A DNA stretch of 36,590 nucleotides, taken from Candidatus Zixiibacteriota bacterium. Its GTDB lineage: Bacteria > Zixibacteria > MSB-5A5 > GN15 > PGXB01. The notes under the pieces are model-generated. The model was not told where the DNA came from. It saw nothing but the letters and a program-made list of their open reading frames with translations, and made no database searches. This document shows, one piece after another, positions 3,659 to 27,144 of the stretch. The position numbers were made by a program, and so were the translations under genes. The number at the start of each line of letters is the position of its first letter. Positions within the stretch are counted from its first letter, which is position 1. The DNA is taken from contig JBFMEF010000015.1 of assembly GCA_040753495.1 (NCBI GenBank), forward strand, positions 1 to 36,590, in the 5' to 3' direction.

Positions 3659-6388
3659 TTATTTAAGGAGAACCATCTTTCTGGTTTCTTTATCCGCTCC
3701 TCGGGTCAGTCTGTAAAAATATATTCCGCTGGCAACCCGGACGCCATTACGGTCGGTGCCATCCCACTCAACCGAATAGTTGCCGGGCAATTCTTTTCTA
3801 TCCACCAGAGTCCTGATTTCCTGCCCAAGAATATTGTAAACTCTGATATTGGTATTAGGTATTTCCGCTCCGGTGACTGCCTTGAGAGTATAGTCAATCC
3901 TGGTGGTGGGGTTGAAAGGATTGGGATAGTTCTGGCGCAACACAAAGTTCTGCGGGAGAACCCGGGAAGTGTTATCGTCTTTTATATCGGTGGTGAAGGA
4001 GCCGAAGAAACTGATGATACGGCTCATCAGAGAATCGCGACGAACGAATCCTGCCGACGGCATCTCTTGAAGGCCCTCGTATCCAAAGTTGAAGAAGACC
4101 AGTTTGTAATTGTTATCGTATGTGAGCGCCGAGTAATTGGTCTGATTGCGGAATTTGAACGCCGGCAGCGCGCCATTGACCGGGATTATCTTGTCAGAAC
4201 TGGTGAAAATCTGATTATTGCCGCTGAAATAGCGCACTGCGATTCCCTCGCCTACAGGCGAGCCGGCGATGCCGTCATGATAGATGCTGAAACCGGCGCC
4301 GCCGTATCGGGCGTGAAGATAATTCTCAAGGAAGAGCGAGTCCTGCACCCGCAATTTATCGGCAAGATCCTGACCGGTCAGAAAGAGATTGCCGCCATTG
4401 TCAAGATAGGTCTTTATGGAAGTAATATCGGCCGCCTGCAAATAGCCTGACGCGGTATCACCGGTGAACCAGAAAACCATGCGGTAGTTGTTCATAAAAG
4501 GTCCGGGGGGAGCGCCCAGAATCCGCTTTTCCCAGATATCGGCAGGAATTCTTTTGGCGTACAGGTCGCCGAAATAGATATCCTCATAGGAGTCGCCCCG
4601 ATCATCATCGACAATCAAGACCTGCGGTCTGCCGATTACTTTTTCGACCGCGAATGCATTTGTATAGGTTCCGCCATCGGTGGAAATGTCAAGGAAGAAC
4701 GAATCATAGGTCGGCGTGATGGTGTCGGGAACAACGAAACTGAGCGGGCTGGAAATGTTGTTGGCGGAGGCGCCGTCTCCCGTAAGAGAAGAGCGAAATA
4801 CCGAGGGGTTGTTAATATTTATCGACGGGTCATTGCTGGAGAGAGTGAAATTGGCATTGGCGGCGGTGAGCCAGAGATTCTTGATGAAGAAAAAGACCTG
4901 GACCGTTTCGCCGGGGTCGAAGAAGCCATCGGAATGCTCATCAACAAAAACCAGAGAATCGAGAGCGATATAGGGACGGGACCAGCGGATATCAAGATTG
5001 GCGTACATTACCGAATCGGGGTCAGAAATATTCCAGACCGAGACCTCGGTGATAGTCGGTCCATAGCCGCGGCTGTCGGGAACCGAGAGGTCATCAAAGG
5101 AGCGCTTATTGACGCTTCCGGGCCAGGGGTCGCCGGCGTCACCGTCGTTGTACAAGGTGAACTCCAGATTGCGAAGTCCATCTGCTTGCTCCAGAGCGAC
5201 GCGATAAGGGATACCGGAATTGTTGCCGTCGGCATCACCCAGAATATCATATACATGATAGATAAGAAGCCCTTCGCCCGGCAGATAGGCGTCAAAACCG
5301 GTTAACTGGCGATTCTCCACCAGGAAGTACTGCAACCCATAGGTGCCATCTGACCAGAGCCGATAGATGACCGGGTTGGTTTCGACCTGGGGAATAGGCG
5401 CATTGACAAGATTGCCGGTCACATTGGTTTCGGTAACAAAACCGGCGGCTATTTTGCTGAAGGCATCGAAATGCGCCGGTGTGCGGGAATTATTGTTGTA
5501 ACTGCCGCTTCCCATGAGCGACCAGCGACCCAATCCGGCGGAGGTATTATCGATATCGGCGATATCATAAAGGTCGGGCAGACCGATAAAATGACCATAT
5601 TCGTGGCAGAAGACACCGATGGGAGAGATCCCGGGAACGGCGTCAGACTCTTCAGGCTCCATCGTGTAATTATAGACTTCAACGCCGTCTCTTGTCTGTG
5701 GGACACTGAGGTGCCACTTATGCGAATGTATTTCGGCTTCGTCGCCCGATTCCTCGAAACCAGTTCCGGCATGCACCACAAAGAGGCCATCCACTTTCCC
5801 ATCCGGTCCACCGCCGAGCCCCCAGGAATCATAAACCGAGAAATCGACATAATCATCGGCGGAATCGACCGCGATTTCAGCCAGGCGCTGAGCATTGTTA
5901 GGGTAGGACCCAATGCCATTGGTCCCGTATGGGGAATAATAGCTCATCGGCTCCGGCATCCGGAACCAGCCATAGACATCACCGATGATGAAAAATGTGC
6001 CGTAAGAGTTCTCGAGATAGTATTCCGTCATGGAGCCGCTCGGGTTCTTCCCTTCCGAAAATAACACCGAATCAAATAGTGGCGGAGTGGCCGCAATAGC
6101 GCCGGCGGTGTACGGTTTATCGCTGAAATCAACCAGAATTACGAGGACTCTGACGGTATCGACTTGATTGATATCGGTGGCAAGTTTGTCTTTGGCTTTG
6201 ATAGCGGCGGGTGCATCCATACCGCGGCTTCGGGCATCATTGAGCCGATTGACAAAATCATCAAATATGCCTTCGGCTTTCAACTTCTCGATAACCTCCG
6301 GCGACGGCGGCACGGCGTAAGCCGCAGGGTAAATAAGCGCCAGCCAGAGCAGGAGGACGGCATATTTAATCATGTATCTACTTTTCAT
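3659..6388 (-). CDS. Secreted M6-like zinc metalloprotease with GATase-like domain and Por-type sorting domain
   Basis: A 909-residue exported protease. Residues 1-25 form a signal peptide (charged start, VLLLWLALIYPAAYA). The catalytic region (about 75-340) contains HEYGH at 262-266, the HExxH zinc site, followed by GLPDLYD and later GRWSLMGSGS, the pattern of the M6/immune-inhibitor-A family. Around residues 588-790 lies a segment starting VLIVDDDRGD, with WFTGD and GGNLFLTGQD, that looks like a GATase1-like Rossmann module seen in secreted FCB proteins (fold inferred). The last 80 or so residues have NYPNPFNPTT, YNILGQE, ASGIYFYRL and KMVLLK, a Por/type IX-like sorting signal, implying export across the outer membrane. 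An AGGA ribosome site precedes the ATG. It lies 56 bases downstream of the subtilase gene, probably one transcript. Substrate unknown. Confidence 0.88.
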   Translation of the reverse strand: MKSRYMIKYAVLLLWLALIYPAAYAVPPSPEVIEKLKAEGIFDDFVNRLNDARSRGMDAPAAIKAKDKLATDINQVDTVRVLVILVDFSDKPYTAGAIAATPPLFDSVLFSEGKNPSGSMTEYYLENSYGTFFIIGDVYGWFRMPEPMSYYSPYGTNGIGSYPNNAQRLAEIAVDSADDYVDFSVYDSWGLGGGPDGKVDGLFVVHAGTGFEESGDEAEIHSHKWHLSVPQTRDGVEVYNYTMEPEESDAVPGISPIGVFCHEYGHFIGLPDLYDIADIDNTSAGLGRWSLMGSGSYNNNSRTPAHFDAFSKIAAGFVTETNVTGNLVNAPIPQVETNPVIYRLWSDGTYGLQYFLVENRQLTGFDAYLPGEGLLIYHVYDILGDADGNNSGIPYRVALEQADGLRNLEFTLYNDGDAGDPWPGSVNKRSFDDLSVPDSRGYGPTITEVSVWNISDPDSVMYANLDIRWSRPYIALDSLVFVDEHSDGFFDPGETVQVFFFIKNLWLTAANANFTLSSNDPSININNPSVFRSSLTGDGASANNISSPLSFVVPDTITPTYDSFFLDISTDGGTYTNAFAVEKVIGRPQVLIVDDDRGDSYEDIYFGDLYAKRIPADIWEKRILGAPPGPFMNNYRMVFWFTGDTASGYLQAADITSIKTYLDNGGNLFLTGQDLADKLRVQDSLFLENYLHARYGGAGFSIYHDGIAGSPVGEGIAVRYFSGNNQIFTSSDKIIPVNGALPAFKFRNQTNYSALTYDNNYKLVFFNFGYEGLQEMPSAGFVRRDSLMSRIISFFGSFTTDIKDDNTSRVLPQNFVLRQNYPNPFNPTTRIDYTLKAVTGAEIPNTNIRVYNILGQEIRTLVDRKELPGNYSVEWDGTDRNGVRVASGIYFYRLTRGADKETRKMVLLK

Positions 6389-6444: not shown

Positions 6445-9360
6445 TTATTTAACAAGCATCATCTTGCGGGTCAGGACGGCGGTTTCGGTCTTCAGGACAT
6501 AGAAATAGAGTCCGGAGCCAACTGCTTCTCCCCTGTCGGTACATCCGTTCCAGAGCGCTTCGTGACGACCGGCGTCAAGAGAGCCATGCAGCAGAGTCGT
6601 TACTTTCTGCCCAAGAATATTGTAAACGGAGAGAGTTATTTCAGAGCGACGAACCAGGTCAAAGCTGATGGTAGTCGCCGGATTGAAAGGGTTGGGGTAA
6701 TTTTGATGAAGTACAAACTGCTCAGGAAGTAACGGGGAATCGTCATTGACATCGGTGCTGCCCAGATACCTGCCCCAGGCGCGGCTGGCGGAATATTTCA
6801 AAGAATTTAAATCATGACCGGCAACAAGAGCCAGAGCGACTTCGACCGAATCTCCGGGACGAATGAAGTAAGGACCGAAAGAATTGAGGGTCATGAAGTC
6901 GGCAGCAACAAGGTTGTTTATCATAGTTCCGCTTCTCTTAATATAATCGAACTTCTGCTGCGAGGTAAGCCCAATCTTGGCGCCTCCGTTCTCCAGCGTC
7001 GATATACCATTCATGGCTTTAAGTGAAACAATGCCGATAGCGGTTTGTTCGCCAAGTTGATAGACCATTCCGTTATCGGAATCAAAACCGGCCTGGTCAC
7101 CGCTGGGGGAAAGGTCGAAATCGGTCAAGAAGCCAAAGTAAAGACCGTTTATATTTTCCAGCGAATTATTGACAAGGTAATATTTAATAATCAGATAGTC
7201 TTCTTCACCCGCTTCATCAAAACTAAGTACCGTCTGATTGACAGAAATCGGAATCGGGATAGGCGACTCGCTGTCGGCAAAACGGGAAAAACTGCTGAAA
7301 CCGCCGCTGGAGGAAAGGGTTGAGGATGTTAGGGGCGTCAGCGGCATGAAATCGGACTGGTCGGCGCGCGCCAGACTGTCGCGAACGGAAGAAGAGAGCT
7401 GCAGGGCGCTCCTGCCGATTATTATTCCGGCTTCGTAAAGCAGGTTCGAGGAGCCGTCATATTTAAATCCCTCACCGCCGGCGGAATAGATGGAATTTAT
7501 GCCCAAGCCGAACTGTCCAAAGTCGGAGACGGTGAACTGGATGGCGGCGGTGGAGTGAGTCAGCATCGAGCCGTTAGGGGCCCGTCCCACCGTCACCTGC
7601 AGAGGAAGAGTATCGATACCCATACCGAAGGGGTAGGTTATATGCAACGCCAGCGGCATCGAGGCGCCGTTAATTAGCGCGCTATCAAAGCGCAATCTGA
7701 AAGCGAATGGATTGATGGAATAGCTTCCCCCCGGCTCAAAGAAGTACGGTGAAGAACTATTGATAACAGTGGCACGAGAATCGAGGGAGACGATAGTAGC
7801 GAACAGGGAATCGACATTGGCGGCCGGGATATTGAGGCGGAGGAAGAGGTCAAAAGTCTCGCCCGGGTCGGCGATACCGTCTCCACTGATAACCTGCCCC
7901 GCGAGATAGACTTCAGGCATAAGCGGCACGGGCAGGTAGTTGAGTATGCGGGAAGCGTCGGGAAGGCCATATCCGTAATTATTATCTTCTCCGGCCGCGC
8001 CTAAATCGCGGCAGGAATTCAGGATGGCGGTCTTGATTTCCGCCACAGTGGCGTTGGGATTGTACTGCCTCATCAAAGCAACCAAACCGGCGATGAAAGG
8101 GGCGGACATGGAAGTTCCACTCATCAGGCGGTAAGTTCCGCCTTTGTAGGATGAATAGACCGAAACGCCGGGCGCGACTACTTCCGGCTTGATTTTGGTA
8201 TTATCGCAGCTGGAGGGTCCCCGGCTGGAGAAATTGGCGATAGTGAGATTGGCGGCGTCCAGAGCGCCGACAGCAAAGGAATTGAGCGGGCTGCTGGCGC
8301 GGTTGGCGGGAATCCGAAGGGTCATCGGGTCAGGACCTTCATTTCCGGCAGCGAAAATTGTCACGATACCGGCCGCTTCCACATTATCGATTACTTGATT
8401 AAAAGTCCCGTCGCAGGGCGGGAAGATAGAAGTAGGAATTCCCCATGAGTTGAGAATCACATCGGGCATATCATTAACGGTGGAGAGATTGTTATCGGGA
8501 TTAAGCGCCCATTGAAATGCGGCAATAATATCGGCTACCGTGTTGCTCAAGGTTCTCCCCTGGTCGATAACGGCGGCGGTAATCCATTCGGCATCAGGCG
8601 CCACGCCGAAACTATCGGCGGCGGCGTTTCCGACCATAATTCCCATCGTGTGGGTTCCGTGGCCCACCTTGTCGATCGGGATAGTATCGGTCAGCGCCGG
8701 AGCAAACCAGGCGGCGCTGTAAGAAGTCTTACTACCGCGCCATTTGCTTGAAAGGGCCGGGTGAGAGCCTTCAACTCCGGTATCAAAGCTGCAGACCAGT
8801 CGTCCGCGGCCCCGCAGCCCTCTATTCCAGAGATAAGGGATATTGAGCGCTGATAGATGAGTCGAGACGGTCGAGATTTTATTCAAACGGGGGAGTTGTT
8901 CATCAATGGGAGCGATATATTCAACCGGAGCATTATCGACAATCGAGGTCACCGCAGTAAGCCGGGCAATCTTCGGCAGCTGCGACAGCGGCAGGGTCAC
9001 CTGAAGAACCGGCGCCACCCAGAATTCCCGAAACTGGGCCGAAGGAGAAAAAGCTTGAATCGATTTTTTCAGGTCGGCAACAAGCGCCGAATTCTGACGC
9101 GACAGATTTTCCACGGCATGCAGCCGGGTGGCTTCAAGACTGCGCGAGGTCTCCGCAAAAGCATTAATCTTCTGAGTAGTCTCGGCTTCTGGAGTGGCGA
9201 AAACCAAGACAGAGATGATGGTATCAATGGGAGAAGACTGATTCTTATCGATCAGCTCCGAAAGCGCTGGAGAGAGAGAAGCGGCCGACGCAGGAAAAGG
9301 GGTGATAACGGCGGAAAAAGTGATGACCAGGACAAAGAGATTCGATAAGTATTTCAGCAT
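6445..9360 (-). CDS. Secreted subtilisin-like serine protease (S8) with Por-type sorting domain
   Basis: A 971-residue exported subtilase. Numbering from the chosen start, residues 1-28 are a signal peptide (LFVLVITFSAVITPFPASA). An I9-like propeptide probably occupies 40-150. The catalytic triad is visible: Asp193 in SFDTGV, His234 in GHGTHTMG and Ser417 in SGTSMSAP, with the oxyanion Asn340 in AAGNEG. A beta-rich tail follows, then a C-terminal sorting signal (NYPNPFNPATT, YNILGQKV, GSGLYFYVL, KMMLVK). The open frame runs 59 codons further upstream, but the ATG at 9360 has a strong GAGGAG ribosome site and begins a proper signal peptide. Probably first gene of a two-protease operon. Could serve nutrient scavenging from protein or processing of other sorted proteins; substrate not evident. 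Confidence 0.93.
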   Translation of the reverse strand: MLKYLSNLFVLVITFSAVITPFPASAASLSPALSELIDKNQSSPIDTIISVLVFATPEAETTQKINAFAETSRSLEATRLHAVENLSRQNSALVADLKKSIQAFSPSAQFREFWVAPVLQVTLPLSQLPKIARLTAVTSIVDNAPVEYIAPIDEQLPRLNKISTVSTHLSALNIPYLWNRGLRGRGRLVCSFDTGVEGSHPALSSKWRGSKTSYSAAWFAPALTDTIPIDKVGHGTHTMGIMVGNAAADSFGVAPDAEWITAAVIDQGRTLSNTVADIIAAFQWALNPDNNLSTVNDMPDVILNSWGIPTSIFPPCDGTFNQVIDNVEAAGIVTIFAAGNEGPDPMTLRIPANRASSPLNSFAVGALDAANLTIANFSSRGPSSCDNTKIKPEVVAPGVSVYSSYKGGTYRLMSGTSMSAPFIAGLVALMRQYNPNATVAEIKTAILNSCRDLGAAGEDNNYGYGLPDASRILNYLPVPLMPEVYLAGQVISGDGIADPGETFDLFLRLNIPAANVDSLFATIVSLDSRATVINSSSPYFFEPGGSYSINPFAFRLRFDSALINGASMPLALHITYPFGMGIDTLPLQVTVGRAPNGSMLTHSTAAIQFTVSDFGQFGLGINSIYSAGGEGFKYDGSSNLLYEAGIIIGRSALQLSSSVRDSLARADQSDFMPLTPLTSSTLSSSGGFSSFSRFADSESPIPIPISVNQTVLSFDEAGEEDYLIIKYYLVNNSLENINGLYFGFLTDFDLSPSGDQAGFDSDNGMVYQLGEQTAIGIVSLKAMNGISTLENGGAKIGLTSQQKFDYIKRSGTMINNLVAADFMTLNSFGPYFIRPGDSVEVALALVAGHDLNSLKYSASRAWGRYLGSTDVNDDSPLLPEQFVLHQNYPNPFNPATTISFDLVRRSEITLSVYNILGQKVTTLLHGSLDAGRHEALWNGCTDRGEAVGSGLYFYVLKTETAVLTRKMMLVK

Positions 9361-9654
9361 TTTGGTTCTCCTCAGCATCTTCTGATAGAGGTTCGAGCAA
9401 CCGATATGCCGCAGGAGGAGGACATTTTGGAGATGCAAATGAAGATAATCCGGAACGGACGAACCAGACTCGCCAAGCCATAAGATATTGTGGCATTGTA
9501 ACTTATATTGTTTATATAAACTGTTTATTTTATGCACAGTTTTGCTCAGGGAGATGGATTCATTTTGCAGGGCGGTCTTGAAGTATGCATATAGGAACAG
9601 GATTGCAGCCTCTTAACAGTTGAAATAAATCGTGGTTGAGTTTATTTTGGTTTG
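9361..9654. other. Intergenic region between divergent protease and glycosyltransferase genes
   Basis: About 290 bases hold the promoters of two divergent units. The clearest structure is a perfect 12-base AT-rich palindrome GTTTATATAAAC at 9510-9521, next to further A/T-rich sequence. It could be an operator or simply a promoter element. I see no convincing -35/-10 pair on either strand, and no open reading frame that looks coding. Confidence 0.4.
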
Positions 9655-11829
9655 ATGCGTCGATTCAAATTCCGAAATATCTTTTCAGACCCTCTGACCA
9701 TTGTAATCTTGCTGGGGGGATTGTACCGACTTATCTATCTTCTTCACTATTATGCCAGCCCTGAATGGAGCCAACTGCTGGTCGATTCTCTCTATCATGA
9801 CCGCTGGGCAGCGGCAATCGCATCGGGCGACTGGGTCGGAGCGGAAGCGTTCTTCCGCGCGCCGCTGTATATCTATTTTCTGGGATTAATTTACGTCGTA
9901 TTTGGGCATTCAATTCTTATGGCAAGAATCGCCGGGTGTCTCTTTGGACTCATTTCTATTGGCCTCACCTATAAGATTGCGGAGAAGGTTTTCGACAAGC
10001 GTACTGCGGTCATAGCCGCCGGAATTCATGCCCTGTATCCATTGGCGGTTTACTATGAATCGGAATTGATGGTTGAGCCGTTTCTAACATTTCTGCTGGA
10101 GGCGGCAGTTCTGACACTTCTTTCGGCGGCGCAGCAACCGGGGTATCGCCGCTATGCATATTCGGGACTTCTTATGGGACTTGCCGCCATTACAAAACCG
10201 GTAGTACTGCCGCTTTTTATTGTTATCGCGGGGTACATTTTTCTCAGAAGCGGCGGAATCAAGAAGGCAGTCGGATTGTTTGCAGTTTTCATGGCAGGCG
10301 TTATCCTTGTCATTTTGCCGGTAACAATCAGGAATTATGCTGTCTCCAAAGACCCGGTGCTGGTGGCATCATCAGGAGGAATCAATTTTTATATTGGCAA
10401 TAATTCTCGCGCTGACGGCTTGACGGCATCAGTCCCGGAAATCGGCGCTAACTGGCAAATTGAAGATATTCGATATCTGACAGAGAAAGAGACGGGACAA
10501 TCGCTCGCCCCGTCAGAAATATCCGATTACTGGTACAGGAAGGGATGGCAGTGGATAGTTGAGAATCCTGCAGATTTCGCGAGGCTGTACATAAAAAAGA
10601 TATATTTCTTCTTGAATAACTATGAAGTTTCCAATAATCGGAATCTCAACGCGGTATTTGCGGCGAATCCGATTTTGAGAATATCGCCGTTGAATTTTGG
10701 CATGATTCTGGCGGGGGCGCTTTTATCCCTGTTCTTCCTGAGAAGACTCAAAGAGAGAAGACAGGATGTCATCTTAGTTCTGGGGATGATTCTTCTCTTC
10801 GCCGGGACAACCGCGCTCTATTTCATTAACGCCCGTTTCCGGCTGCCGATATTGCCGTTCCTTTTCTGCCTGGCGTCGTTTGGCGCAATTTCTCTGATGG
10901 ATACGATAAGGATGGGGCGGCTTCTGCTGAGCGGATTATGCCTGGCAACAGCGGGGGCAGTATATATCTTCTCTATAAGTAATCTCTATCAGATTGACAC
11001 TGAAAACATAAAGAGCGCTTATTTTAACCAGGGAAACTACTTCTTGTATTCCGGGGACTTTGAGCAAGCGCGCGAAAATTATTACCGTCTTCTTGACGAC
11101 GACCCGGAATTTCCGGAGGCGAATCTGAATCTTGGGGCAACATTCCTGCGGCAGGGCGAAACCGATTCGGCCGAATTCTATTTCATGAAGGAGCTGGCAT
11201 ATTATCCTGCCAACGCCAGGGCGCTAAGCAACCTGGCAACTGTATTCTATCTGAGGAAAATGATGGATTCGTCGCTGACTTATGCCACCCGGGCGATTGA
11301 GGCTAAGCCATATTTCCTTGATGGATATCTGGCGAAGACTCGCGTCCTCGGCGCCAAGGGGGACCTGGAAAGCCTGGAAGAGCTCTTGAAGGAAGCGGAT
11401 AGAAATCTGCCACGAAGAGGGCGACTTTATCTTGATGCCGGCATCATTTTCGGAGAGAAGAAGGAATTTGGCAAAGCCGAACTTTATCTCAAGCGAGCGC
11501 TGGCTGAGGAAGCAGCCCCGGTAGAAATGGATGATAATGCCTTCCTCTATTCCACCGAGGCGTATGACGCCGGACAGAGACGTCTCAAGGCAAAAGCCTT
11601 CTATGAGCTGGGATATATTTACGGAGTGCAGAATCTTTTGACAGAGTCAATCGAAATGAGCCGTCAAGCGATAGCGCTCGATTCCAGTCTGGCAGAGGCA
11701 TACATCAATCTGACGAGCGGTCTGCTCCTGAGCGGGCAGGTGTCGTCGGCTAAAGCAACGTTAGAAACAGCCCGCCGTCGTTTTCCGGAGAATGCCGCCA
11801 TCAAACAGATCTGGGAATCAATTAAATAA
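9655..11829 (+). CDS. Membrane glycosyltransferase (GT39/ArnT-like) fused to TPR repeats
   Basis: A 724-residue integral membrane protein. Residues 1 to about 430 contain roughly ten hydrophobic spans. An acidic residue in the first periplasmic loop (LVDSLYHDRWA) is followed by FFRAPLYIYFLGLIY and YYESELMVEPF, the pattern of PMT_2-type lipid-linked sugar transferases. These use polyprenyl-phosphate sugars to glycosylate proteins or lipids on the outer face of the inner membrane. Residues from about 445 to the end are helical TPR repeats (for example AYFNQGNYFLYSGDFEQARENY and EANLNLGATFLRQGETDSA), probably periplasmic and binding partner proteins. The ATG at 9655 is preferred over the adjoining TTG at 9652; no strong ribosome site is seen. 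Monocistronic, closed by the terminator at 11828-11866. Acceptor unknown; the fusion suggests a protein substrate, perhaps the secreted proteins nearby (inference). Confidence 0.8.
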   Translation: MRRFKFRNIFSDPLTIVILLGGLYRLIYLLHYYASPEWSQLLVDSLYHDRWAAAIASGDWVGAEAFFRAPLYIYFLGLIYVVFGHSILMARIAGCLFGLISIGLTYKIAEKVFDKRTAVIAAGIHALYPLAVYYESELMVEPFLTFLLEAAVLTLLSAAQQPGYRRYAYSGLLMGLAAITKPVVLPLFIVIAGYIFLRSGGIKKAVGLFAVFMAGVILVILPVTIRNYAVSKDPVLVASSGGINFYIGNNSRADGLTASVPEIGANWQIEDIRYLTEKETGQSLAPSEISDYWYRKGWQWIVENPADFARLYIKKIYFFLNNYEVSNNRNLNAVFAANPILRISPLNFGMILAGALLSLFFLRRLKERRQDVILVLGMILLFAGTTALYFINARFRLPILPFLFCLASFGAISLMDTIRMGRLLLSGLCLATAGAVYIFSISNLYQIDTENIKSAYFNQGNYFLYSGDFEQARENYYRLLDDDPEFPEANLNLGATFLRQGETDSAEFYFMKELAYYPANARALSNLATVFYLRKMMDSSLTYATRAIEAKPYFLDGYLAKTRVLGAKGDLESLEELLKEADRNLPRRGRLYLDAGIIFGEKKEFGKAELYLKRALAEEAAPVEMDDNAFLYSTEAYDAGQRRLKAKAFYELGYIYGVQNLLTESIEMSRQAIALDSSLAEAYINLTSGLLLSGQVSSAKATLETARRRFPENAAIKQIWESIK

Positions 11830-11866
11830 ATAAGGGTCGAAGAAGTGGTATCTTCGACCCTTATTT
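11828..11866. terminator. Strong bidirectional terminator between convergent genes
   Basis: A perfect 16-base inverted repeat (stem starting AAATAAGGGTCGAAGA) with a 7-base loop, flanked by A-rich sequence on the left and TTTT on the right. It separates the plus-strand glycosyltransferase gene, whose stop overlaps the stem, from the minus-strand lipoprotein gene ending at 11883, and should act for both. Confidence 0.92.
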
Positions 11867-11882
11867 TCTAAATCAGAAAATT

Positions 11883-14225
11883 CTATTCTTCGACAATATT
11901 CCGCAGCAGGCCGGCTTTCTTCTTAATCTGCATATCGCGCAGGACATTATCCAGCTCCTGAAGTTGCTGTTGCGAGCCGGAGAAAGCATTGGGAGCCAGT
12001 TTGCCGGCGCCAAGGAATGGCTGCTCAGCCAACCAATCCATCATCGGTTCGAAGACACCGAGGGCGGCCTCTCTCTCGAAAGGCAGCAATGTGAAGGTGA
12101 AGTGAGCCGTGCGGAAAAACGGAGTGTTCCGTTTAATCGCCACCACCGTGCCTTCGTACTTCAAAACATTGCCGGTTCTAATGGTGCTACAGGTATAAGA
12201 CAGCTGCGGCGTATTGGTGCCGTACTTTGATTTGTAGAGGTATAAAGCTGTGTCGCTGAAGCTCTGCTTGGCGACATATCCGACCTCTGGATAGGCCCCC
12301 ACCACCATCGGACCGGTAGCGGTAGCGCAACGGAAAGGAAATCTCAGAGCGCCGTATGAGGGCGGGCGATGCCAGTAGTAGCGAGATTCCAGCAGGAGAG
12401 TATCGATATTGAGGTCGGGCATATTCGGGTCAAGACTGTAGGCGCCGACAAAATCCTCAATACGAATCTGTCCATAGGGACCCCAGAAAGCGGGAGGACC
12501 AAACTGCAGATAACTTACAAATTCAGCCCAGGCTGTAAAGGATATCAGGTCGACGCCGAAAGCGATACGGTATTCAGATGGCGCCGACTGCAGGAGATTG
12601 GGTGGAAGCCCGTCGAATATATCGGTTCCGCTGGCGAAGGGACGGCGCATCATGGCCCAGCAACTCATACCATTGCGAATACCTTTCAGAATCGACTCCC
12701 CTTCAACCGATTCAAGATTTATCACACGGGTGGCATTGTCCTTGACCAGAAGAATTATCTTGTGCTTGAGCACATCTCTCAAGGAAATTACCGGCATGCC
12801 TCCGAGAGGATATTTGAGCAGGGCCGCTATCGCATAATAGTCCTGCGTGCAGCGGAAGGTACTGTAATAGACGAAGTAAGGGCCCTCGCCAGACAAATTG
12901 TAGATGGTATCATCAGGCAAGATATTATCGGTGTCAAAAGAGCCTGGTTTCCAGGTATTTATCAGGTCGCCGTATACAGTCTTTATCATGGGTGGCGTCG
13001 ATTCCGGATATCCATCACGTCCCGGGAAAAGCGCGTAGTTGTAGTTTCCGGCTGTGGTATTGCCGTACTCGGTGAGGTCAAGGAGTATGACCTCGCGTTC
13101 AAATTTCGGTTCGATTACCGAGGTCCATTTATAATCCGGAACCGGGTCGGGGACTTTAGAATCATCGCGCGCCTGGCACCAGATAACGAAGTATTTCAGT
13201 CGCGTGGTGTCGCCCGCGGTTGAGACAGTGTCGTAACGGAAGACGTCATAAACATTGATATTCTCGTCATTCACCCAGGGCTGACCGGTTAAGGGATTAT
13301 ATGATTCGCCAATCACTCTCTGGAAGCGAGGCGGCAGGGAATCAATATAGAAGAACATATCCCAGGAGCCGTAGGGATTGCCGCCTTTTAGAGTATCGAC
13401 CAGTATGAAATTGAAGACGGTATCGAAGGTCGTATCCCACGGAATCGTGGTGGTATCAATGGTAGTGTCGATTCTATTGACAGTCTTATAGAAATCACCC
13501 AGATAGTAGAAGTCGCCGAAGTTGTCGACAAAGACCGATTCAACGTAAAGCATATTGATTGTATCCATCTGAAGGCTATCAAACGGACCGTACATCTTCC
13601 ACTGATACTCAAAAGGAGGCGGGTTGCGCGGGTAATCGATCGGGTCAGTGGCGGAAAACTGAATGCTGACACCCTCCAGTGAAATTGAACCGATTCCGGG
13701 GGATTTGGCGTTGATATACGGGTCATGAATCGGATTGGCCGTTACCAGCGTAATCGGGAAGTGATTATTCTTGCGATACATCCGGTACACAACACGGGAG
13801 CCGGCATCGAGATTATCCACGGCCTGAATGAAGATGTAGGATGCGACAAACTTGCGCACCGGGTCGCTGACATCAGCCGACATCTTCACCTTGTCCTTCG
13901 TTCCGGGACTCTGCAGAGTTACCGGCACTACAATCCAGGGTATGGAGTTACTCGGGGCAGTGCTAATAAAGCCATCGGGGTCGTTTCCGACGATAGTGCT
14001 TTCCACCACGGCATAGCGGAAATACTTGATAAAGCCATCAACATCGGTGCCATACCAGTAAATGGTGGTATCCGATGAGAACTGGGCGCCATCCACCGGA
14101 ATATTCACGAATTCCACGATGGGGGGAATATTCGCGCGGGGAGGCCCCTTGATTTCTTTGTCACATCCCCCCACAATATATAAGCCGAGAAGCACTGCGG
14201 AAATTAACAATAAGCTCCGCTTCAT
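11883..14225 (-). CDS. Large outer-envelope lipoprotein of unknown function
   Basis: A 780-residue lipoprotein that I do not recognise as a named family. The signal peptide MKRSLLLISAVLLGLYIVGG is followed by the lipidated Cys21. Near the N-terminus (residues 30-75) the pattern PPIVEFVNIP...YWYGTDVDGFIKYFRYAV resembles a fibronectin/Ig-like beta domain common in FCB surface proteins. The C-terminal half (from about 490, LKHKIILLVKDNATRVINLES) has alternating strands and helices, possibly Rossmann-like; no catalytic motif is seen. The ATG at 14225 is chosen over an upstream in-frame ATG at 14264 because GGAGGAAT lies just before it and it starts the lipoprotein signal. It is last in the operon with the TonB receptor and PorV-like gene, suggesting it is their surface or periplasmic partner. 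Confidence 0.75.
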   Translation of the reverse strand: MKRSLLLISAVLLGLYIVGGCDKEIKGPPRANIPPIVEFVNIPVDGAQFSSDTTIYWYGTDVDGFIKYFRYAVVESTIVGNDPDGFISTAPSNSIPWIVVPVTLQSPGTKDKVKMSADVSDPVRKFVASYIFIQAVDNLDAGSRVVYRMYRKNNHFPITLVTANPIHDPYINAKSPGIGSISLEGVSIQFSATDPIDYPRNPPPFEYQWKMYGPFDSLQMDTINMLYVESVFVDNFGDFYYLGDFYKTVNRIDTTIDTTTIPWDTTFDTVFNFILVDTLKGGNPYGSWDMFFYIDSLPPRFQRVIGESYNPLTGQPWVNDENINVYDVFRYDTVSTAGDTTRLKYFVIWCQARDDSKVPDPVPDYKWTSVIEPKFEREVILLDLTEYGNTTAGNYNYALFPGRDGYPESTPPMIKTVYGDLINTWKPGSFDTDNILPDDTIYNLSGEGPYFVYYSTFRCTQDYYAIAALLKYPLGGMPVISLRDVLKHKIILLVKDNATRVINLESVEGESILKGIRNGMSCWAMMRRPFASGTDIFDGLPPNLLQSAPSEYRIAFGVDLISFTAWAEFVSYLQFGPPAFWGPYGQIRIEDFVGAYSLDPNMPDLNIDTLLLESRYYWHRPPSYGALRFPFRCATATGPMVVGAYPEVGYVAKQSFSDTALYLYKSKYGTNTPQLSYTCSTIRTGNVLKYEGTVVAIKRNTPFFRTAHFTFTLLPFEREAALGVFEPMMDWLAEQPFLGAGKLAPNAFSGSQQQLQELDNVLRDMQIKKKAGLLRNIVEE

Positions 14226-14263
14226 ATTATTCCTCCAGAAATTTGTCTTCCCAATCATAGCCA

Positions 14264-15217
14264 TTAGAAGGAAAGTCCGATTGAAAATCTATGCACCTGG
14301 TCGAGCCATCCGAAGTCCTGATAAGCGTAATCGACCGAGATATCCATTTCTTCCCCGATGGGAAGACGCAAGCCGCCGCCGGCGGTAAAACCGTCGGAAT
14401 CATAATTCAGCCTCTCCCCTATGCGGAGGCTGAACTTATTCTGAAACCAGTATTCCAATCCGACATTATATTTTTCCAGGTTGTCGGCCGGGTGGCTTCC
14501 TTCGGCTCCGATGGAAACAAGATGGTTCGGTGTGTTCAGGGCATCGATGGAAGCGCCAAACTTGAAGTTGATGGGAAGGGGAAACGCTTTGGAGATGAAT
14601 TTGAAATCGGGACCGAAATTGGATATGACCATTCCGATTTTGAAATTGCGGTAGCCCGAATTATAGAGCGTCCCGACATCGGCGGCCCACCCGGAGGCTT
14701 TCTTCAGCTCCAGATTCTCCTGGATGAATTTTGCCGTGACCCCGACCGAGAATTTATCGGTGAGGAATCGGCCATAACTGACGCCGATAGCCAGGTCGCC
14801 GGCGGAAAAATACTGGGCATTGTTATTCTGGTCAACTCCCAGGGGATAGTAGTAGTCGGTATAGAGGATATCGCCGGCGTTCAGAGAATAGGCGCTGACG
14901 CCGACAACACCGCCAACCTGCTCCAGCGGAAAGACCAGCGCAAAGAATTCATAATTGATATCCGCGGGCATATCGACATGGGTAAACATGGCATCGCGGC
15001 CAAAGACATAGGTCAGTCCGGCGGGGTTGTAGTACACGGCGGAGGCGTCATTCACCCCCGCGCAAAAAGCCTCCGCCATACCCATAGCCCTTGCGGATAC
15101 TCCTAACTCGAGGAAATTTAAGCCGGTCGTACCTACCTTTGCCTGACCAAACGCGAACATCGGCAGAGCCAGAATGGCAAGCATCAGCAATCCGACGCGG
15201 AATCTATTAGGTTTCAT
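14264..15217 (-). CDS. PorV/PorQ-family outer membrane beta-barrel protein
   Basis: A 317-residue exported barrel-like protein. A signal peptide ending near FAFGQA is followed by the diagnostic stretch VGTTGLNFLELGVSARAMGMAEA and DASAVYYNPAGL, typical of the PorV/PorQ family (UPF0164-like). Alternating beta strands run to a terminal aromatic residue (SIGLSF). In type IX secretion PorV shuttles sorted cargo from the translocon to the sortase on the outer face. Many FCB genomes hold additional paralogues beside TonB receptors, whose roles are unknown. The ATG at 15217 is chosen because AGGAG lies 9 bases upstream; an ATG 9 bases earlier directly abuts that site. It lies 38 bases after the receptor gene and 38 bases before the lipoprotein ATG, in one operon. 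Confidence 0.85.
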   Translation of the reverse strand: MKPNRFRVGLLMLAILALPMFAFGQAKVGTTGLNFLELGVSARAMGMAEAFCAGVNDASAVYYNPAGLTYVFGRDAMFTHVDMPADINYEFFALVFPLEQVGGVVGVSAYSLNAGDILYTDYYYPLGVDQNNNAQYFSAGDLAIGVSYGRFLTDKFSVGVTAKFIQENLELKKASGWAADVGTLYNSGYRNFKIGMVISNFGPDFKFISKAFPLPINFKFGASIDALNTPNHLVSIGAEGSHPADNLEKYNVGLEYWFQNKFSLRIGERLNYDSDGFTAGGGLRLPIGEEMDISVDYAYQDFGWLDQVHRFSIGLSF

Positions 15218-15255
15218 CGAATTCATCTCCTATATAAAACCATTATTTTCAAAAC

Positions 15256-18200
15256 TTATAGGCTAAGCTGCAATCCCAGTTTAATCTGCCGACCGTAATT
15301 CCAGTTCTCTGGATTGCGGTCAAAATCGGTGCCGCCCATGACATTGTAACCATCGTTCTGGTTTGTATCGGCGCGCCCGGTATTGGCGTAAACGCCCTGG
15401 ACGTTTCGGTTGTCCAGAAGGTTATCGACCCAGACGATGAAGCGCCAGTTGAGATTGACCAGCTTGAAGTATTTCTCGAAACGAACATCGAAGTTAAGCA
15501 CGGAAGGGCGACGCATCGAGTTCTCATCGATATCGACACCGGCTTCAATGTCAAGGTTGGGATATTTTTGTCCCGGAGTAAAGGGACGACCGGTCTCAAA
15601 AAGTCCCTGAATTGAAAAGGTCCAGCCGTTCGGAATGGCAATGCCAAACAGTTTCGGTTTCATAGTCTCCGGAATGACCAGCTGAACGCCGCATTTGAGC
15701 GAGTGGCGAACGTCGTTATCGAGCGGCTTCTCCGAAAGAGACTCGCGACTCAGATAAAAATCGCTGAAGTAAGTGGTGCGGGTCTGCGACTGCTTGCCGT
15801 AAGCAAAAGCATAAGTATAGCTGACTTCACCGTTGATAAGACGGCCGCCGCGCTTATCAAGCATTACTTCAAATCCGCGGCTGCGGCCGTAGTCGCGATT
15901 CTCATATCGCTGCACAACGAGAGCGCCGCCGCCGAGCTTGACATTGGCGCTGTTAATCTTATCGAATTCATCCTTAAAATAGCCGGAAACGTCTATGGAA
16001 TAATCTTCCGACATGGCATACTTGACGCCAAAGGAGTATTGAATGGTCTTGACATAGTCGAGGTTATAGTTGCCGACGACGTCATTGGCGGCAGCGGCAG
16101 TGGTATTACGGTCATACATGAAAGAATAAGACGGAAGCTGGTAGAAGTGACCATAGTTGAAATGAATTTTGGCTTTATCGGAAATCGGATAGGAGAAACC
16201 GATGCGCGGTGAAAGACGAGTCCGGTCGCCGAGAATGATGCCGCTTCCAAGGTCGTCCTGTCGGGCGACATCTTCCAGACCGCCGGACTGGATGAAGAAG
16301 TCGTAACGGAAACCGAGGCTGGCAATCATCGAGCCGTATTCCAGATTATCTCTCAAGTAGAGAGAGCCGCTGAGGGGATTGTAATCATAGAAGTCGCGCA
16401 ATTCGCCGATGCCGGGATAGCGACCGCCATCGTCGCGACCGTTGTAAATCTGCTCCAGCGAACGGATATCTTCCTTATCAAGGAACTCCTTTTTCACTTC
16501 GATACCGGCTTTAAACTCATGGGCGCCCAACTGACGGAACACCTTGCCTTCCAGAGAATACTGCTGGATGCGCCGATGGTGCCAAACGGTTTCGCTCTCA
16601 TAATTGCCGACATTCAAGAAGGAACTGCTACCGGAACCGTCATGCTGATTGTTACCGTTCAGGTCGGTAAAAGGCTCGCCCGGGTCGTAGCGACGATTGG
16701 GGGCATCATAAACGCCATTACCGTTCATATCAACAAAATCGATACCGGGTACCCAGGGTTCGAACGGATAGGTGTAGCGGGAGTTGCGGTCGATATCCAT
16801 GTTTTTGTCGGGGTCGGCCGACATGACGAAGATATCGATCCCTTCCTCGTAACTGCCATTGTTATTGACATCGATAAATTTCTCACCGAGGTTGATATCG
16901 CCATCGATATAAGGCTCTTCATTTCGCGTGTCAATGATGTCGCGGCGGTCGGAGTCATAGACGCCATTGCCGTTGGTGTCATAGAGATAGTCACCCTGGT
17001 CCCAGGCGCCATTACCGTTGAGGTCTATAAACGGCTCACCTTCGAGATAGGGACCGCGCGAGCCATCATTGAAGCGGAAATTGGTCACATAGGTGTAACC
17101 GGCCTGCGAGTTATTTATAAAGGGCGAATTGCCGTAAGTGTAAAGCGGGGCAGAAAGGTCACGACCGTAAATCATCGTGTCGGGGAAAACGTTGATAATC
17201 GGCTCGGGCGGGTCATATATGCCGTTGCCGTTACGGTCATCGAAGCTTTCGAAATCCGTGTAGCGGAGGAACTGGTCGGGGTCAAGCCCCTCCCCGGGGT
17301 TATTGGGGTCACCCGGTTTCCATTGCACATCGCGATTGTAGTAAGCGGCTTTGAGATAATAATGCATATTCTTGGAAAGCTGGTGGGTGAATTCCAGAGA
17401 ATATGACTGCCACTTAGTCTCGTTAATCGGCGCCGTATTGGGGGTGTAGCGATAAATCCAATTGAAATCGGTATAATGATTGACGCTGTTCTTATAGGAA
17501 AAGATCGCCTTCATATTGTTGAGCGGTTTCATCATCAGATTGGCATTTATGGTGTAATCATTGAGCTGCCGCTCCGGAATATCGAAACCAAGGAAGTTGA
17601 ATTTGCCGTAACGCATGGCGGTATTATCGGAGGAGTATTTGTCATAGCTGTAAGGGGTGCCGGTCTTGGTCATCTCGGCGTACAGATAGTAGGTCACTTC
17701 CTTATCTTCAAGAAAATTGAGTCCCAGCGCCGGCAGAACGCGGCTCTTGAAAATCGGATCGGGACCGCCGATACTGAATGCCAGATTGTCGTAATTATTA
17801 GAATATTTGTTGAGGGTGGCATTTCCCAGGTCATCGGTCAGATACTGCAGATAGAGATTGGTTCTTTCCGCAGAACCGGTCTGAGTGGTTATTTTAATAA
17901 TGCCAGAAAGGGCGTTGCCGTACTCGGGGTCAAAGCCATCTTTGATGATACTGATTTCCTGAATCGAGCCGGAAGTAAGCGAAAGCCCCAGTGTGGTTGG
18001 GCCATAACCGCCAAGTGGGTCGCCGATATTGACGCCGTCAACGATGTAGGCGACTTCACCGGCGCGACCGCCGCGGATAATCACTTCACCCTGGGAGGTG
18101 GTTACCACACCGGCCGTCTGCTGAAGCAGTTTATCTACATTCGTGACCGGCATAGTCTTGATGGCTTCGCGGGTCATACGAACAGTCCCGGTGAACTCAT

Positions 18201-18594
18201 ACTTGTCAATCTTGTCGCGGTCGGCGGTGACCTTGATAACTTTACCGATGTCGGTCACCGATTTTTCCATCTGAATGTTTATTTCTGTGGTCTTATCGGT
18301 GGAGACGACCACATCGGAAATCTCGACCGTATTGTAGGAAACAGAGGTGACGCGCAAGACATAAGTCTCAGTCGGCACCAGATTAATAAGATAGGAACCG
18401 TCGGGGTCGGTCATGGCACCCTGGGTGGTACCGACGATAAGAACGGAAGCGCCGGGAATCGGCTCGCCCGATTCCTTATCGGTGACACGACCTTTGATTT
18501 TGCCGGTTCCGGCGGCAAAGACGACGGATGATAGAAGCAACAGCCCGGATATGACAGCTACGAGAAGGGAAAATCTCCTGGGCAGTCCACTCAT
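15256..18594 (-). CDS. TonB-dependent receptor with carboxypeptidase-regulatory N-domain and D-x-N-x-N-x repeats
   Basis: A 1112-residue outer membrane receptor. Residues 1-28 are a signal peptide. About 31-110 is a carboxypeptidase-regulatory-like beta sandwich (GKIKGRVTDKESGEPIPGAS, DPDGSYLI). About 130-240 is the plug (VTNVDKLLQQTAGV, VIIRGGRAGEVAYIVDGV). The remainder is a 22-strand-type barrel ending in aromatic-rich strands (LGLQLSL). Unusually, residues 452-652 contain six acidic D-x-N-x-N-x(G/N) motifs at about 452, 524, 539, 575, 622 and 644, probably binding calcium in a long surface loop. A GGAGGAAAG ribosome site precedes the ATG and a good promoter lies at 18798-18827. It leads an operon with PorV-like and lipoprotein genes. 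Ligand unknown; no classical SusD partner is present. Could import oligomers or act as an export partner. Confidence 0.9.
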   Translation of the reverse strand: MSGLPRRFSLLVAVISGLLLLSSVVFAAGTGKIKGRVTDKESGEPIPGASVLIVGTTQGAMTDPDGSYLINLVPTETYVLRVTSVSYNTVEISDVVVSTDKTTEINIQMEKSVTDIGKVIKVTADRDKIDKYEFTGTVRMTREAIKTMPVTNVDKLLQQTAGVVTTSQGEVIIRGGRAGEVAYIVDGVNIGDPLGGYGPTTLGLSLTSGSIQEISIIKDGFDPEYGNALSGIIKITTQTGSAERTNLYLQYLTDDLGNATLNKYSNNYDNLAFSIGGPDPIFKSRVLPALGLNFLEDKEVTYYLYAEMTKTGTPYSYDKYSSDNTAMRYGKFNFLGFDIPERQLNDYTINANLMMKPLNNMKAIFSYKNSVNHYTDFNWIYRYTPNTAPINETKWQSYSLEFTHQLSKNMHYYLKAAYYNRDVQWKPGDPNNPGEGLDPDQFLRYTDFESFDDRNGNGIYDPPEPIINVFPDTMIYGRDLSAPLYTYGNSPFINNSQAGYTYVTNFRFNDGSRGPYLEGEPFIDLNGNGAWDQGDYLYDTNGNGVYDSDRRDIIDTRNEEPYIDGDINLGEKFIDVNNNGSYEEGIDIFVMSADPDKNMDIDRNSRYTYPFEPWVPGIDFVDMNGNGVYDAPNRRYDPGEPFTDLNGNNQHDGSGSSSFLNVGNYESETVWHHRRIQQYSLEGKVFRQLGAHEFKAGIEVKKEFLDKEDIRSLEQIYNGRDDGGRYPGIGELRDFYDYNPLSGSLYLRDNLEYGSMIASLGFRYDFFIQSGGLEDVARQDDLGSGIILGDRTRLSPRIGFSYPISDKAKIHFNYGHFYQLPSYSFMYDRNTTAAAANDVVGNYNLDYVKTIQYSFGVKYAMSEDYSIDVSGYFKDEFDKINSANVKLGGGALVVQRYENRDYGRSRGFEVMLDKRGGRLINGEVSYTYAFAYGKQSQTRTTYFSDFYLSRESLSEKPLDNDVRHSLKCGVQLVIPETMKPKLFGIAIPNGWTFSIQGLFETGRPFTPGQKYPNLDIEAGVDIDENSMRRPSVLNFDVRFEKYFKLVNLNWRFIVWVDNLLDNRNVQGVYANTGRADTNQNDGYNVMGGTDFDRNPENWNYGRQIKLGLQLSL

Positions 18595-18797: not shown

Positions 18798-18827
18798 ATA
18801 ATACCTCCGTTGGCAGCGGCAAGTCAA
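18798..18827 (-). promoter_or_regulatory. Sigma-70-like promoter of the TonB receptor operon
   Basis: On the minus strand, TTGACT (18822-18827), an 18-base spacer and TATTAT (18798-18803), each five of six consensus bases. It lies about 205 bases before the receptor ATG, giving a long untranslated leader. Confidence 0.65.
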
Positions 18828-18907: not shown

Positions 18908-19696
18908 TCAATCAAATCCGCGCTTTTCCAGCGGATTTTTGGTCAGAAATGCGATTTTTACGGCAAGTTCCGCCTTATCCCGAGAGGAAAGAGAAAATTC
19001 ATTGAATTTGAGATGAAGATATTTCGCAAAAACTGCGGGAAAGAAGTCTTTCAATTCGTCCATGGAATACCCGGCGCTGCTGTTGGCTTTCGCTGCCGGT
19101 TCCATCGCTCCCTGACCGATAGCCGGGAATGGGGAGATTCCATTAAGTTTGAGCGAACCCTGGAAGATTATAAAATTGCCTTTTATTCTTTGAGCGACTC
19201 CGGCGATTTTTGAGCCTCCGGCGGTAAGCTCATACTTGGCAACCGATTGAAAACAGGCTTGCGACTTCAATGGGGAATTGGTTGGGGGGCTTTGCGACTG
19301 TCGCTGCCAATGGGCATCGATTCCCAACCGGATGAGAAGCTCTTTGAGGAGCTCGGACATTTTGGAATTCGTCGCCGAGAGGGAATGAAAGTCGGCTCCG
19401 AAGGTTTGCAGCGAAGTTGAAAAAGAGAAAGTTATCTCCGAGGTCTCATGATAAATGGCTCGGCCTCCGGTGATTCGCCGAATGACCGGAATTGGGGCAG
19501 TCATCTTTAATGGGTCGATGGCCCGCTCATAGCGTTGATTGTAGCCAAGGGTAACTCCGGGAGGAGCCCAGCTGTAGAGCCTCAGGACGGGCGGCAATTT
19601 TTTGCGGCAAACCTGGCCAAAGAGCCATTCATCCAACGCCATATTGAATATTGGCGGTTGTTCCGGCGTTACCAGGTAAAGAGCATCTCTTTCCAT
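18908..19696 (-). CDS. Lipoate/octanoyl transferase, LipM-like
   Basis: Member of the biotin/lipoate A/B protein ligase superfamily, 262 residues. It has VIRRITGGRAIYHE at about 71-84, where ligases and octanoyltransferases bind the acyl group. The segment ACFQSVAKYEL then GSKIAGVAQ places a cysteine at residue 148 and a lysine at 163, matching the acyl-thioester cysteine and conserved lysine known for octanoyltransferase LipM of Bacillus. I therefore favour octanoyl-ACP to GcvH/E2 transfer over ATP-dependent lipoate ligation, though LplA is not excluded. No strong ribosome site is seen at the ATG; it may be read through from the tRNA-Arg promoter, as the tRNA ends about 80 bases upstream. 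Confidence 0.8.
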   Translation of the reverse strand: MERDALYLVTPEQPPIFNMALDEWLFGQVCRKKLPPVLRLYSWAPPGVTLGYNQRYERAIDPLKMTAPIPVIRRITGGRAIYHETSEITFSFSTSLQTFGADFHSLSATNSKMSELLKELLIRLGIDAHWQRQSQSPPTNSPLKSQACFQSVAKYELTAGGSKIAGVAQRIKGNFIIFQGSLKLNGISPFPAIGQGAMEPAAKANSSAGYSMDELKDFFPAVFAKYLHLKFNEFSLSSRDKAELAVKIAFLTKNPLEKRGFD

Positions 19697-21119: not shown

Positions 21120-22148
21120 TCATTTCAGCAGAATCATCTTCCTCACATCAGAAAACTCTCCCGCAGTGAGTCGATAAAAATAAACACCGCTGGTGCGCGA
21201 CGCCGCCGAATATTCTATGGAATGATTTCCGGCGCCAAGGTGACCCAGGTCGAAACTCTCCAACTGACGGCCCAGGATGTCATAAATCGCCAGAGAAACG
21301 TGACTCGCCCGAGGAAGGTCAAAGGAGATAACGGTCACCGGGTTAAAGGGATTGGGATAATTCTGATGGAGACTGAACGAAGCCGGCAAAAGCGGAGAGC
21401 CGTCGCCGGGAGCATCCGTCATTACAATATGGGTGGTTACCGAGCCTTCCACATAGACCGTCGGGTCAATACCAGAACTAACCCGAAAGGTGATGATATC
21501 GGTGGTATCTTCAAACAACACCGGCGGGACTAGAAAATCAAAGTACAGATAGGCGACCTGCCCGGCCGGGGCATAGGCGAAACCGAAGAAAGGACGAACA
21601 ATCCAGCCGTTGTTGGAGGTTGCCGAAATCGTGTAAAAATCAATCCCCTGCCCTGTATTCTGCACCCCGACCATGTATCGGATGGTATCGCCGGGAGTGG
21701 CGAAACGGTCGGTCGGCATGGAATAGGGAGCGATAGAGATTATGGCAGAGGCCGAGAGATTGACTTCTTTGTCATCGCCAAGAACTCCGGTCCAGGTGGG
21801 CATATCAGGACCGTGGACGGCGGCAAGACGTCCGTTAATGACAAAGGTTATGGTCTCGCCTACTGCTGACGCCCCTTCATCTATGCCCGATAACGGGTCG
21901 TCCGCATACACCGGCATGAAACCATAATTGCCGGCGGTTATGACTGTGTCGCTGCCGCAGTGAGTTCCCTGACCGTCATAGGCGTCAATTATGGAACCGA
22001 CCGGAAGCGGCTGGCCGTTGTATGTCGAGACCGAACCATAGAAATTCATCCAGACGTTAGTAGGATAGACATCCCCGAATGCCAGGGATGCCGTGAACAA
22101 CAAACTCATTCCTCCGACTATCAAAACCCTCAGTAATTTATCTTTCAC
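21120..22148 (-). CDS. Secreted protein with shared surface module and Por-type sorting domain
   Basis: A 342-residue exported protein of unknown function. Residues 1-25 are a signal peptide. From about 27 to 130 lies a module with PLPVGSIIDAYD, HCGS, YGFMPVYADDP, DEGA and FVINGRLAA. The same module occurs in the giant protein encoded just upstream. A middle beta domain (about 135-250) has PTDRFATPGDTIRYMVGVQNTG. The C-terminal 80 residues are a sorting signal: NYPNPFNPVTVISF, YDILGRQ, SGVYFYRL, KMILLK. The ATG is preceded by AAGGAAGGTG-type sequence. It starts 64 bases after the giant gene's stop, probably on the same transcript, and is closed by the terminator at 21074-21098. Possibly a surface or matrix protein; no enzyme motif seen. 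Confidence 0.8.
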   Translation of the reverse strand: MKDKLLRVLIVGGMSLLFTASLAFGDVYPTNVWMNFYGSVSTYNGQPLPVGSIIDAYDGQGTHCGSDTVITAGNYGFMPVYADDPLSGIDEGASAVGETITFVINGRLAAVHGPDMPTWTGVLGDDKEVNLSASAIISIAPYSMPTDRFATPGDTIRYMVGVQNTGQGIDFYTISATSNNGWIVRPFFGFAYAPAGQVAYLYFDFLVPPVLFEDTTDIITFRVSSGIDPTVYVEGSVTTHIVMTDAPGDGSPLLPASFSLHQNYPNPFNPVTVISFDLPRASHVSLAIYDILGRQLESFDLGHLGAGNHSIEYSAASRTSGVYFYRLTAGEFSDVRKMILLK

Positions 22149-26811: not shown

Positions 26812-27144
26812 TACTTGCTCCTGTTTCATTTGTATATTAGAGTCATTTATTTCGTGAGGATGATTTAGAGACACTCAGCCAATATTAGAAAGCCATTTCT
26901 CGCTCGCCAATCAGGCGAAAGAAGCCACATGCGGTTCACCTTATCTTCTTTCCCTCCCGTCAGAAATAGTTATAGATACCAGTCAACACTTTAGCAAAGC
27001 TAGTACCACTTATTTCTCAAAAATATGGCAAATGCAAGTAATCTAATGGGCTCAGCAACAATAAAATATGATTGTCGAAAATAAAGTCAAGTTAAATAAT
27101 GATAACGAGATACGCAAAATTATGCACAAAAATGCCAAAACAAA
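26812..27144. other. AT-rich intergenic region upstream of the giant surface protein
   Basis: About 330 bases, notably AT-rich in the distal half. It holds a candidate minus-strand promoter for the giant gene at 27063-27090, leaving a leader of about 250 bases that contains a small CGCC/GGCG hairpin. I see no gene and no clear terminator for the VanZ-like gene ending at 27145. Confidence 0.5.
27063..27090 (-). promoter_or_regulatory. Candidate promoter of the giant surface protein operon
   Basis: On the minus strand, TTGACT (27085-27090), 16-base spacer, TATTTT (27063-27068; four of six matches). The surrounding sequence is AT-rich, so chance matches are easy; moderate support only. Confidence 0.4.

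Follow-up and report, generated by a model that had tools for sequence, protein, structure and literature searches.

Which envelope system is encoded where a TonB-dependent receptor, a PorV-like barrel and a large lipoprotein stand in a row? Three such genes lie in the stretch of DNA analysed here, termed the window: all 36,590 nucleotides of contig JBFMEF010000015.1 (positions 1 to 36,590) of a Candidatus Zixiibacteriota bacterium (assembly GCA_040753495.1). An earlier sequence-only reading regarded the triplet as a strong candidate for an undescribed system. The conserved unit has held, whereas the idea of a free-standing triplet has not: relatives carry a cargo gene within the operon, paralogous cassettes recur, and a complete-looking outer-membrane set of the type IX secretion system (T9SS) appears to be encoded. 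The operon is neither a SusCD nor a canonical PorV/PorQ system, and these three features favour reading it as a surface module linked to the T9SS, with a PorV-type carrier of its own that would serve receptor and cargo, rather than as an unconnected new system. This is our leading reading, held tentatively and a little short of probable.

A phylum-wide three-gene operon in Zixibacteria

The three genes are as follows.

15256..18594, minus strand: TonB-dependent receptor, 1112 amino acids (aa), first gene of the operon; open reading frame with a signal peptide-like start
14264..15217, minus strand: PorV/PorQ-family outer-membrane barrel (PorV-type carrier), 317 aa, second gene; NCBIfam NF033709, PF19572
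11883..14225, minus strand: large lipoprotein, 780 aa, third gene; invariant lipobox Cys21

These neighbouring open reading frames run on the minus strand from 18594 down to 11883, in the places originally assigned to them, and the gaps first put at about 38 bases are both exactly 38 bases when starts behind good ribosome-binding sites are used (ATG at 15217 for the barrel gene, which has a second in-frame ATG at 15226, and ATG at 14225 for the lipoprotein gene).

Adjacency in relatives had been proposed as a test of a single conserved envelope unit, and the genes do stay adjacent. Relatives' contigs were gathered with the receptor alignment as query, phyla other than Zixibacteria being sparsely sampled. 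The lipoprotein was found in 113 of 117 relatives by protein search and its family in 129 of 132 genomes of the phylum by profile search, including all 78 good genomes (at least 90% complete, at most 5% contamination). A PorV-family gene is among the next three genes in 63 of the 77 receptor loci with downstream sequence, and 55 also have the lipoprotein behind it; eight of the other 14 loci end at a contig edge. Median gaps across loci are about 29 bp between receptor and PorV and about 20 bp between PorV and lipoprotein. Receptor orthologues across Zixibacteria share 36-97% identity with more than 100 invariant columns, and the barrel orthologues keep more than 50, while the lipoprotein family is divergent, with identities down to 20-30%. 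Since receptor and barrel are strongly conserved while the lipoprotein drifts, the former two may constitute a shared, constrained membrane part and the latter a looser scaffold.

General synteny contributes to this picture, because the flanking genes, encoding a lipoate ligase-like protein and a glycosyltransferase-TPR (GT-TPR) protein, are conserved neighbours as well, as would be expected if the three genes were accidental neighbours with unrelated functions. However, gaps of tens of base pairs are kept phylum-wide while the flanking genes vary, and receptor-cargo-PorV cassettes recur independently elsewhere in the same genomes. Accidental neighbourhood is thus strongly disfavoured, to the point of being scarcely credible, and the three-gene unit is a real phylum-wide operon. 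Among named relatives, Candidatus Zixiibacteriota (GN15) come closest. The nearest record to the window, L085 (DYGG01000002.1), is named Ignavibacterium sp.; its receptor is 97% identical and its surroundings are otherwise Zixibacteria, so that it is probably misnamed.

Two sequence signals frame the operon.

18798..18827, minus strand: promoter-like site upstream of the operon, TTGACT-18-TATTAT, 10/12; consensus match only
11828..11866, minus strand: terminator-like hairpin directly 3' of the lipoprotein gene, 16-bp stem and T-rich tail; common to the convergent GT-TPR gene

The operon lies 313 bp from the next upstream gene (18908-19696), and with a promoter-like site in this gap and a terminator directly behind the lipoprotein gene a single transcript is plausible. 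The one promoter claimed earlier thus has a matching site at 18827-18798, the weight of which is limited by such sites being about twice as frequent here as in shuffles and mostly within genes; the single transcript remains a plausible reading of the sequence. No Rfam match for a riboswitch or other RNA was obtained in the 313-bp leader. The upstream gene, lipoate-protein-ligase-like and on the minus strand, holds this position in 46 named loci, with a conserved gap of mostly 150-320 bp.

The PorV-type barrel, type IX secretion genes and cargo

The middle barrel had been described as PorV-type and as a pointer to type IX export, and this description is borne out by the NCBIfam model PorV_fam (NF033709), which it passes with 210 bits against a cut-off of 90. 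It also scores 43 bits on the PorV model PF19572, and its profile matches the solved Flavobacterium johnsoniae PorV (6H3I, E 4e-19). It lies below every equivalog cut-off (79 of 250 bits for PorV NF033710, 102 of 220 for PorQ and 83 of 325 for PorV2), and weakly matches Toluene_X/FadL in Pfam.

The window's genome encodes SprA (646 bits, cut-off 200) and PorU (662 bits, cut-off 420), both above cut-off, as is SprA in 92 of 98 relatives and PorU in 27 of 30. It also holds 45 matches to TIGR04183, the type A sorting-domain model, ten PorV_fam members, a canonical-type PorV adjoining PorU (189 bits, under the 250 cut-off and with a large insertion) and a PorQ-like barrel (184 bits, cut-off 220). 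An outer-membrane T9SS set comprising SprA, PorU, a canonical PorV and many proteins with C-terminal sorting domains (CTDs) therefore appears to be present and looks complete. The SprA and PorU-PorV loci stand on contig 48 (L083) and contig 65 (L075) of genome G000. The PorU-adjacent PorV (L075 7139-9901) has 920 aa, and its barrel is interrupted after the first 70 residues by an insertion of some 590; split barrels of this kind are found in other Zixibacteria in frames of 870-946 aa.

In the window's own genome the three receptors most like the window receptor are each followed by a PorV-family gene, and the two paralogous cassettes other than the window's own, on contigs 151 and 41, carry a cargo-like gene between receptor and PorV. 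Of 50 plug-domain matches in seven genomes, 16 have a PorV-family gene behind them on the same strand and within 8 kb, where about 0.6 are expected by chance. The receptor-to-PorV distances fall into three classes (2.8, 4.8 and 5.5 kb) and therefore represent conserved paralogous cassettes. Other PorV-family barrels, one of them fused to a TPR-like C-terminus, adjoin CTD proteins of 1451 aa and 840 aa at L080 3406-5235 and at L081, which suggests several more carrier-cargo pairs.

Most other families of the class encode, between receptor and PorV, a secreted protein of 830-940 aa, whose gene lies directly upstream of porV with gaps of 0-45 bp. Over its last 65 residues this protein can be aligned from end to end with the TIGR04183 type A sorting domains of three window proteins, and its tail can be read as a diverged type A-like T9SS sorting domain. 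A CTD-bearing gene thus stands directly upstream of the carrier in these families and in the two cassettes of the window's own genome, though not at the window locus. PorV carries CTD cargo out of the SprA pore (PMC10994853), and in F. johnsoniae dedicated PorP/SprF shuttles, encoded directly downstream of type B cargo, direct that cargo to its place (PMC12618676). The cargo-then-PorV gene order follows the same logic as these type B pairs, with a PorV-type carrier.

Candidate cargoes at the window locus itself are two proteases.

6445..9537, minus strand: S8 (subtilase) protease with a C-terminal T9SS type A sorting domain, candidate cargo; PF00082 E 2e-49, TIGR04183 E 1e-7
3659..6388, minus strand: M6 metalloprotease with a T9SS type A sorting domain, candidate co-functioning cargo; PF05547, TIGR03296, TIGR04183

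The M6 gene often adjoins the S8 gene in relatives. Along with these two, the window proteins with terminal TIGR04183 domains are those at 21120-22148 (342 aa) and 22213-26874 (1553 aa, cadherin/cohesin-like), four in all. The gene at 9652-11829 on the plus strand, convergent to the operon, encodes a membrane glycosyltransferase-like protein with C-terminal TPR repeats (the GT-TPR protein); all 29 loci devoid of an in-operon cargo have this gene, and its product is a possible glycosylation partner of surface cargo.

Receptor and lipoprotein

The receptor contains the following parts.

18238..18498, minus strand: CarboxypepD_reg-like N-terminal domain, residues 33-119; Pfam PF13715 E 8e-20, PF13620 E 2e-19
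17902..18189, minus strand: Plug domain, residues 136-231; Pfam PF07715 E 6e-10
16630..17238, minus strand: insert of about 200 residues between barrel strands, with five DxNxNG EF-hand-like (calcium-binding-type) motifs; outside predicted strands

The receptor passes the Plug model PF07715 with 40 bits (cut-off 23.9). It has no match to PF00593, the barrel model of TonB-dependent transporters (TBDTs); a structural model of low confidence (predicted local distance difference test, pLDDT, 59) matches TBDT structures (E 2e-17), with TonB-dependent transporters throughout among the matches listed, and being weak it served solely for barrel type and strand positions. TonB proteins are present. The five DxNxNG motifs compare with a mean of 0.2 in shuffled sequences; all 76 orthologues examined have 5-14, and two paralogues of the same genome 0-1. 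On the SusC/RagA model TIGR04056 the receptor reaches 73.5 bits, below the cut-off of 368.

Plug, TBDT-like model and TonB proteins would also suit a nutrient-uptake unit unrelated to T9SS, in which the receptor imports a ligand with the lipoprotein as an accessory at the surface or in the periplasm, and the barrel, a member of the FadL-like superfamily to judge by its weak Toluene_X/FadL match, is a channel or structural partner. Lipoproteins commonly accompany uptake receptors. However, such a unit does not account for the sorting-domain cargo gene that separates receptor and PorV in relatives and in the two paralogous cassettes, and an ordinary nutrient receptor would not usually be retained phylum-wide in single copy with so many invariant columns; we regard the uptake unit as unlikely.

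The same receptor layout bears on a second alternative, a TonB-energised export machine. Myxococcus needs Oar, a protein with this CarboxypepD_reg-Plug-barrel arrangement, to secrete the protease PopC (PMC6434023), and the window receptor, with secreted proteases adjacent, could likewise drive cargo release or export. Searches for the GldL/GldM motor gave no match in the genomes of 21 and 30 relatives despite strong SprA and PorU scores, a negative obtained without a positive control. However, the Oar layout is not diagnostic, because 28% of TBDTs have it, and the cargoes bear T9SS-type signals in genomes with SprA, which makes an Oar-like exporter quite unlikely. In a further reading TonB-dependent receptors would themselves be working components of a T9SS branch: energised by TonB and assigned to a single PorV-type carrier, the receptor would drive release of CTD cargo or act as the energised surface partner, which would couple secretion and uptake in one complex in a phylum perhaps devoid of the GldLM motor; this we consider improbable.

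The lipoprotein had been assigned to no recognised family, and Pfam, NCBIfam and PHROGs indeed returned none, nor did a sequence search of the PDB find a match. The stated lack of a SusD-like partner also agrees with the searches, there being no SusD match for the lipoprotein in Pfam or NCBIfam and none in Pfam for 20 of its relatives. Structure prediction divides the protein into two parts.

13104..14135, minus strand: two FN3/Ig-like domains, residues 31-374; VIA-align Z 8-10 to FN3 modules
12024..13100, minus strand: alpha/beta domain, residues 376-734, like domain B of GH42 enzymes; VIA-align

AlphaFold pLDDT is mostly 85-95 over residues 31-374, except for an insert at 240-285. The alpha/beta domain aligns with residues 397-613 of 5xb7 (VIA-align Z 13.8, 200 residues, root-mean-square deviation 3.2), and we take the domain B-like part to be a class-I-amidotransferase-like fold. 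Because the family alignment shows no invariant Cys or other obvious catalytic set in this domain, the lipoprotein is more likely a scaffold than an enzyme.

A universal, single-copy barrel and lipoprotein also recall outer-membrane assembly accessories, namely the FadL-family barrel BamG and the surface lipoprotein BamH of the Bacteroidota β-barrel assembly machinery (BAM), which are reported in six of seven other phyla of the Fibrobacteres-Chlorobi-Bacteroidetes (FCB) group (PMC12611786); the receptor would then be a client or partner. Against this, the barrel profile matches PorV and no BamG chain in the PDB search, and the lipoprotein profile matches no PDB chain, the presence of BamG and BamH chains in that database being unverified. 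The predicted FN3 and amidotransferase-like parts are also unlike the carbohydrate-binding fold described for BamH (PMC12611786). A BAM accessory is accordingly very improbable.

Proposed mechanism and known systems compared

In the favoured T9SS-linked module, a cargo whose C-terminal sorting domain resembles type A would leave the cell via the SprA translocon and be picked up by the operon's dedicated PorV-type barrel, not by the general PorV. In most other families the cargo would be the in-operon protein; for the window's order the S8 protease is the probable candidate and the M6 protease a possible further one. It would be held at the surface beside the TonB-dependent receptor, which, with calcium-binding-type surface loops and a TonB-dependent plug, would most likely import material, such as peptides, that the displayed protein binds or sets free, while the lipoprotein would act as a non-enzymatic scaffold tying the parts together. 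Since a TonB receptor heads the cassette, the displayed protein is suggested to serve import, as SusD does for SusC, and the T9SS-delivered partner would take the position that the SusD lid has in SusCD. With CTD proteases on the flank, peptides are a reasonable ligand, though an unproven one. We infer the specificity of the carrier, the physical complex, the direction of transport, the identity of the cargo in the window's own genome and the membrane side of the lipoprotein.

Several points weigh against this reading. The window's order and one other family lack the in-operon cargo at its place between receptor and PorV, and where present this cargo has no Pfam or NCBIfam match and passed no curated T9SS model (two examples scanned). 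Residues 639-1030 of the S8 protease match the cargo-family profile (E 1e-11) in four weak pieces; similarity to the in-operon cargo is undetectable in about half of the S8 proteins and weak and piecewise elsewhere. Of 29 loci that lack the in-operon cargo, 27 have an S8 protein with a sorting domain downstream, behind the GT-TPR gene, versus 1 of 7 loci that keep the cargo; this contrast speaks for the module, but it tracks phylogeny and is not independent evidence. With similarity that is broken into pieces and undetected in some S8 proteins, relocation of the cargo from the operon to the S8 gene is put forward as a hypothesis only. Import as the direction is argued by analogy only.

The operon thus offers a phylum-wide, single-copy envelope unit with a concrete hypothesis attached. 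The range of T9SS with many PorV-type carriers now includes Zixibacteria, which lie outside the two T9SS papers cited here. Our literature search found no paper on Zixibacteria with type IX secretion, nor with TonB plus a secretion system, and within the literature searched this is the first link between TonB receptors and T9SS carriers. Should the carrier prove cargo-specific, PorV-type carriers would also follow the one-carrier-one-cargo principle of type B substrates. We regard the operon as a variant form of T9SS carrier-cargo modules, with a mechanism that is put forward tentatively.

Among known systems, SusCD/RagAB shares a CarboxypepD_reg-Plug receptor followed by a lipoprotein and possible peptide or glycan import, but here the receptor scores 73 of 368 bits on SusC/RagA, the lipoprotein has no SusD match and a PorV stands between them. 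Oar of Myxococcus (PMC6434023) has the same N-terminal domain layout and adjacent secreted proteases, whereas Oar has no known PorV/CTD link. BamG-BamH (PMC12611786) is likewise a universal barrel and lipoprotein pair in an FCB phylum, although the operon proteins have no sequence match to it in the PDB (BamG/BamH chains there unverified) and the lipoprotein fold differs. With the PorV/PorQ carriers of Bacteroidota the middle protein shares PorV_fam membership, a match to the solved PorV and a genome with SprA, PorU and CTD proteins; unlike them, it lies far under the equivalog cut-offs and is encoded with a TonB receptor and a lipoprotein, a better canonical PorV standing beside PorU. In the Flavobacterium type B CTD-PorP/SprF pairs (PMC12618676) the carrier also lies directly downstream of its presumed cargo, with several pairs per genome, whereas in Zixibacteria the carrier is of the PorV family, the cargo tail is type A-like and a TonB receptor stands at the head of the cassette.

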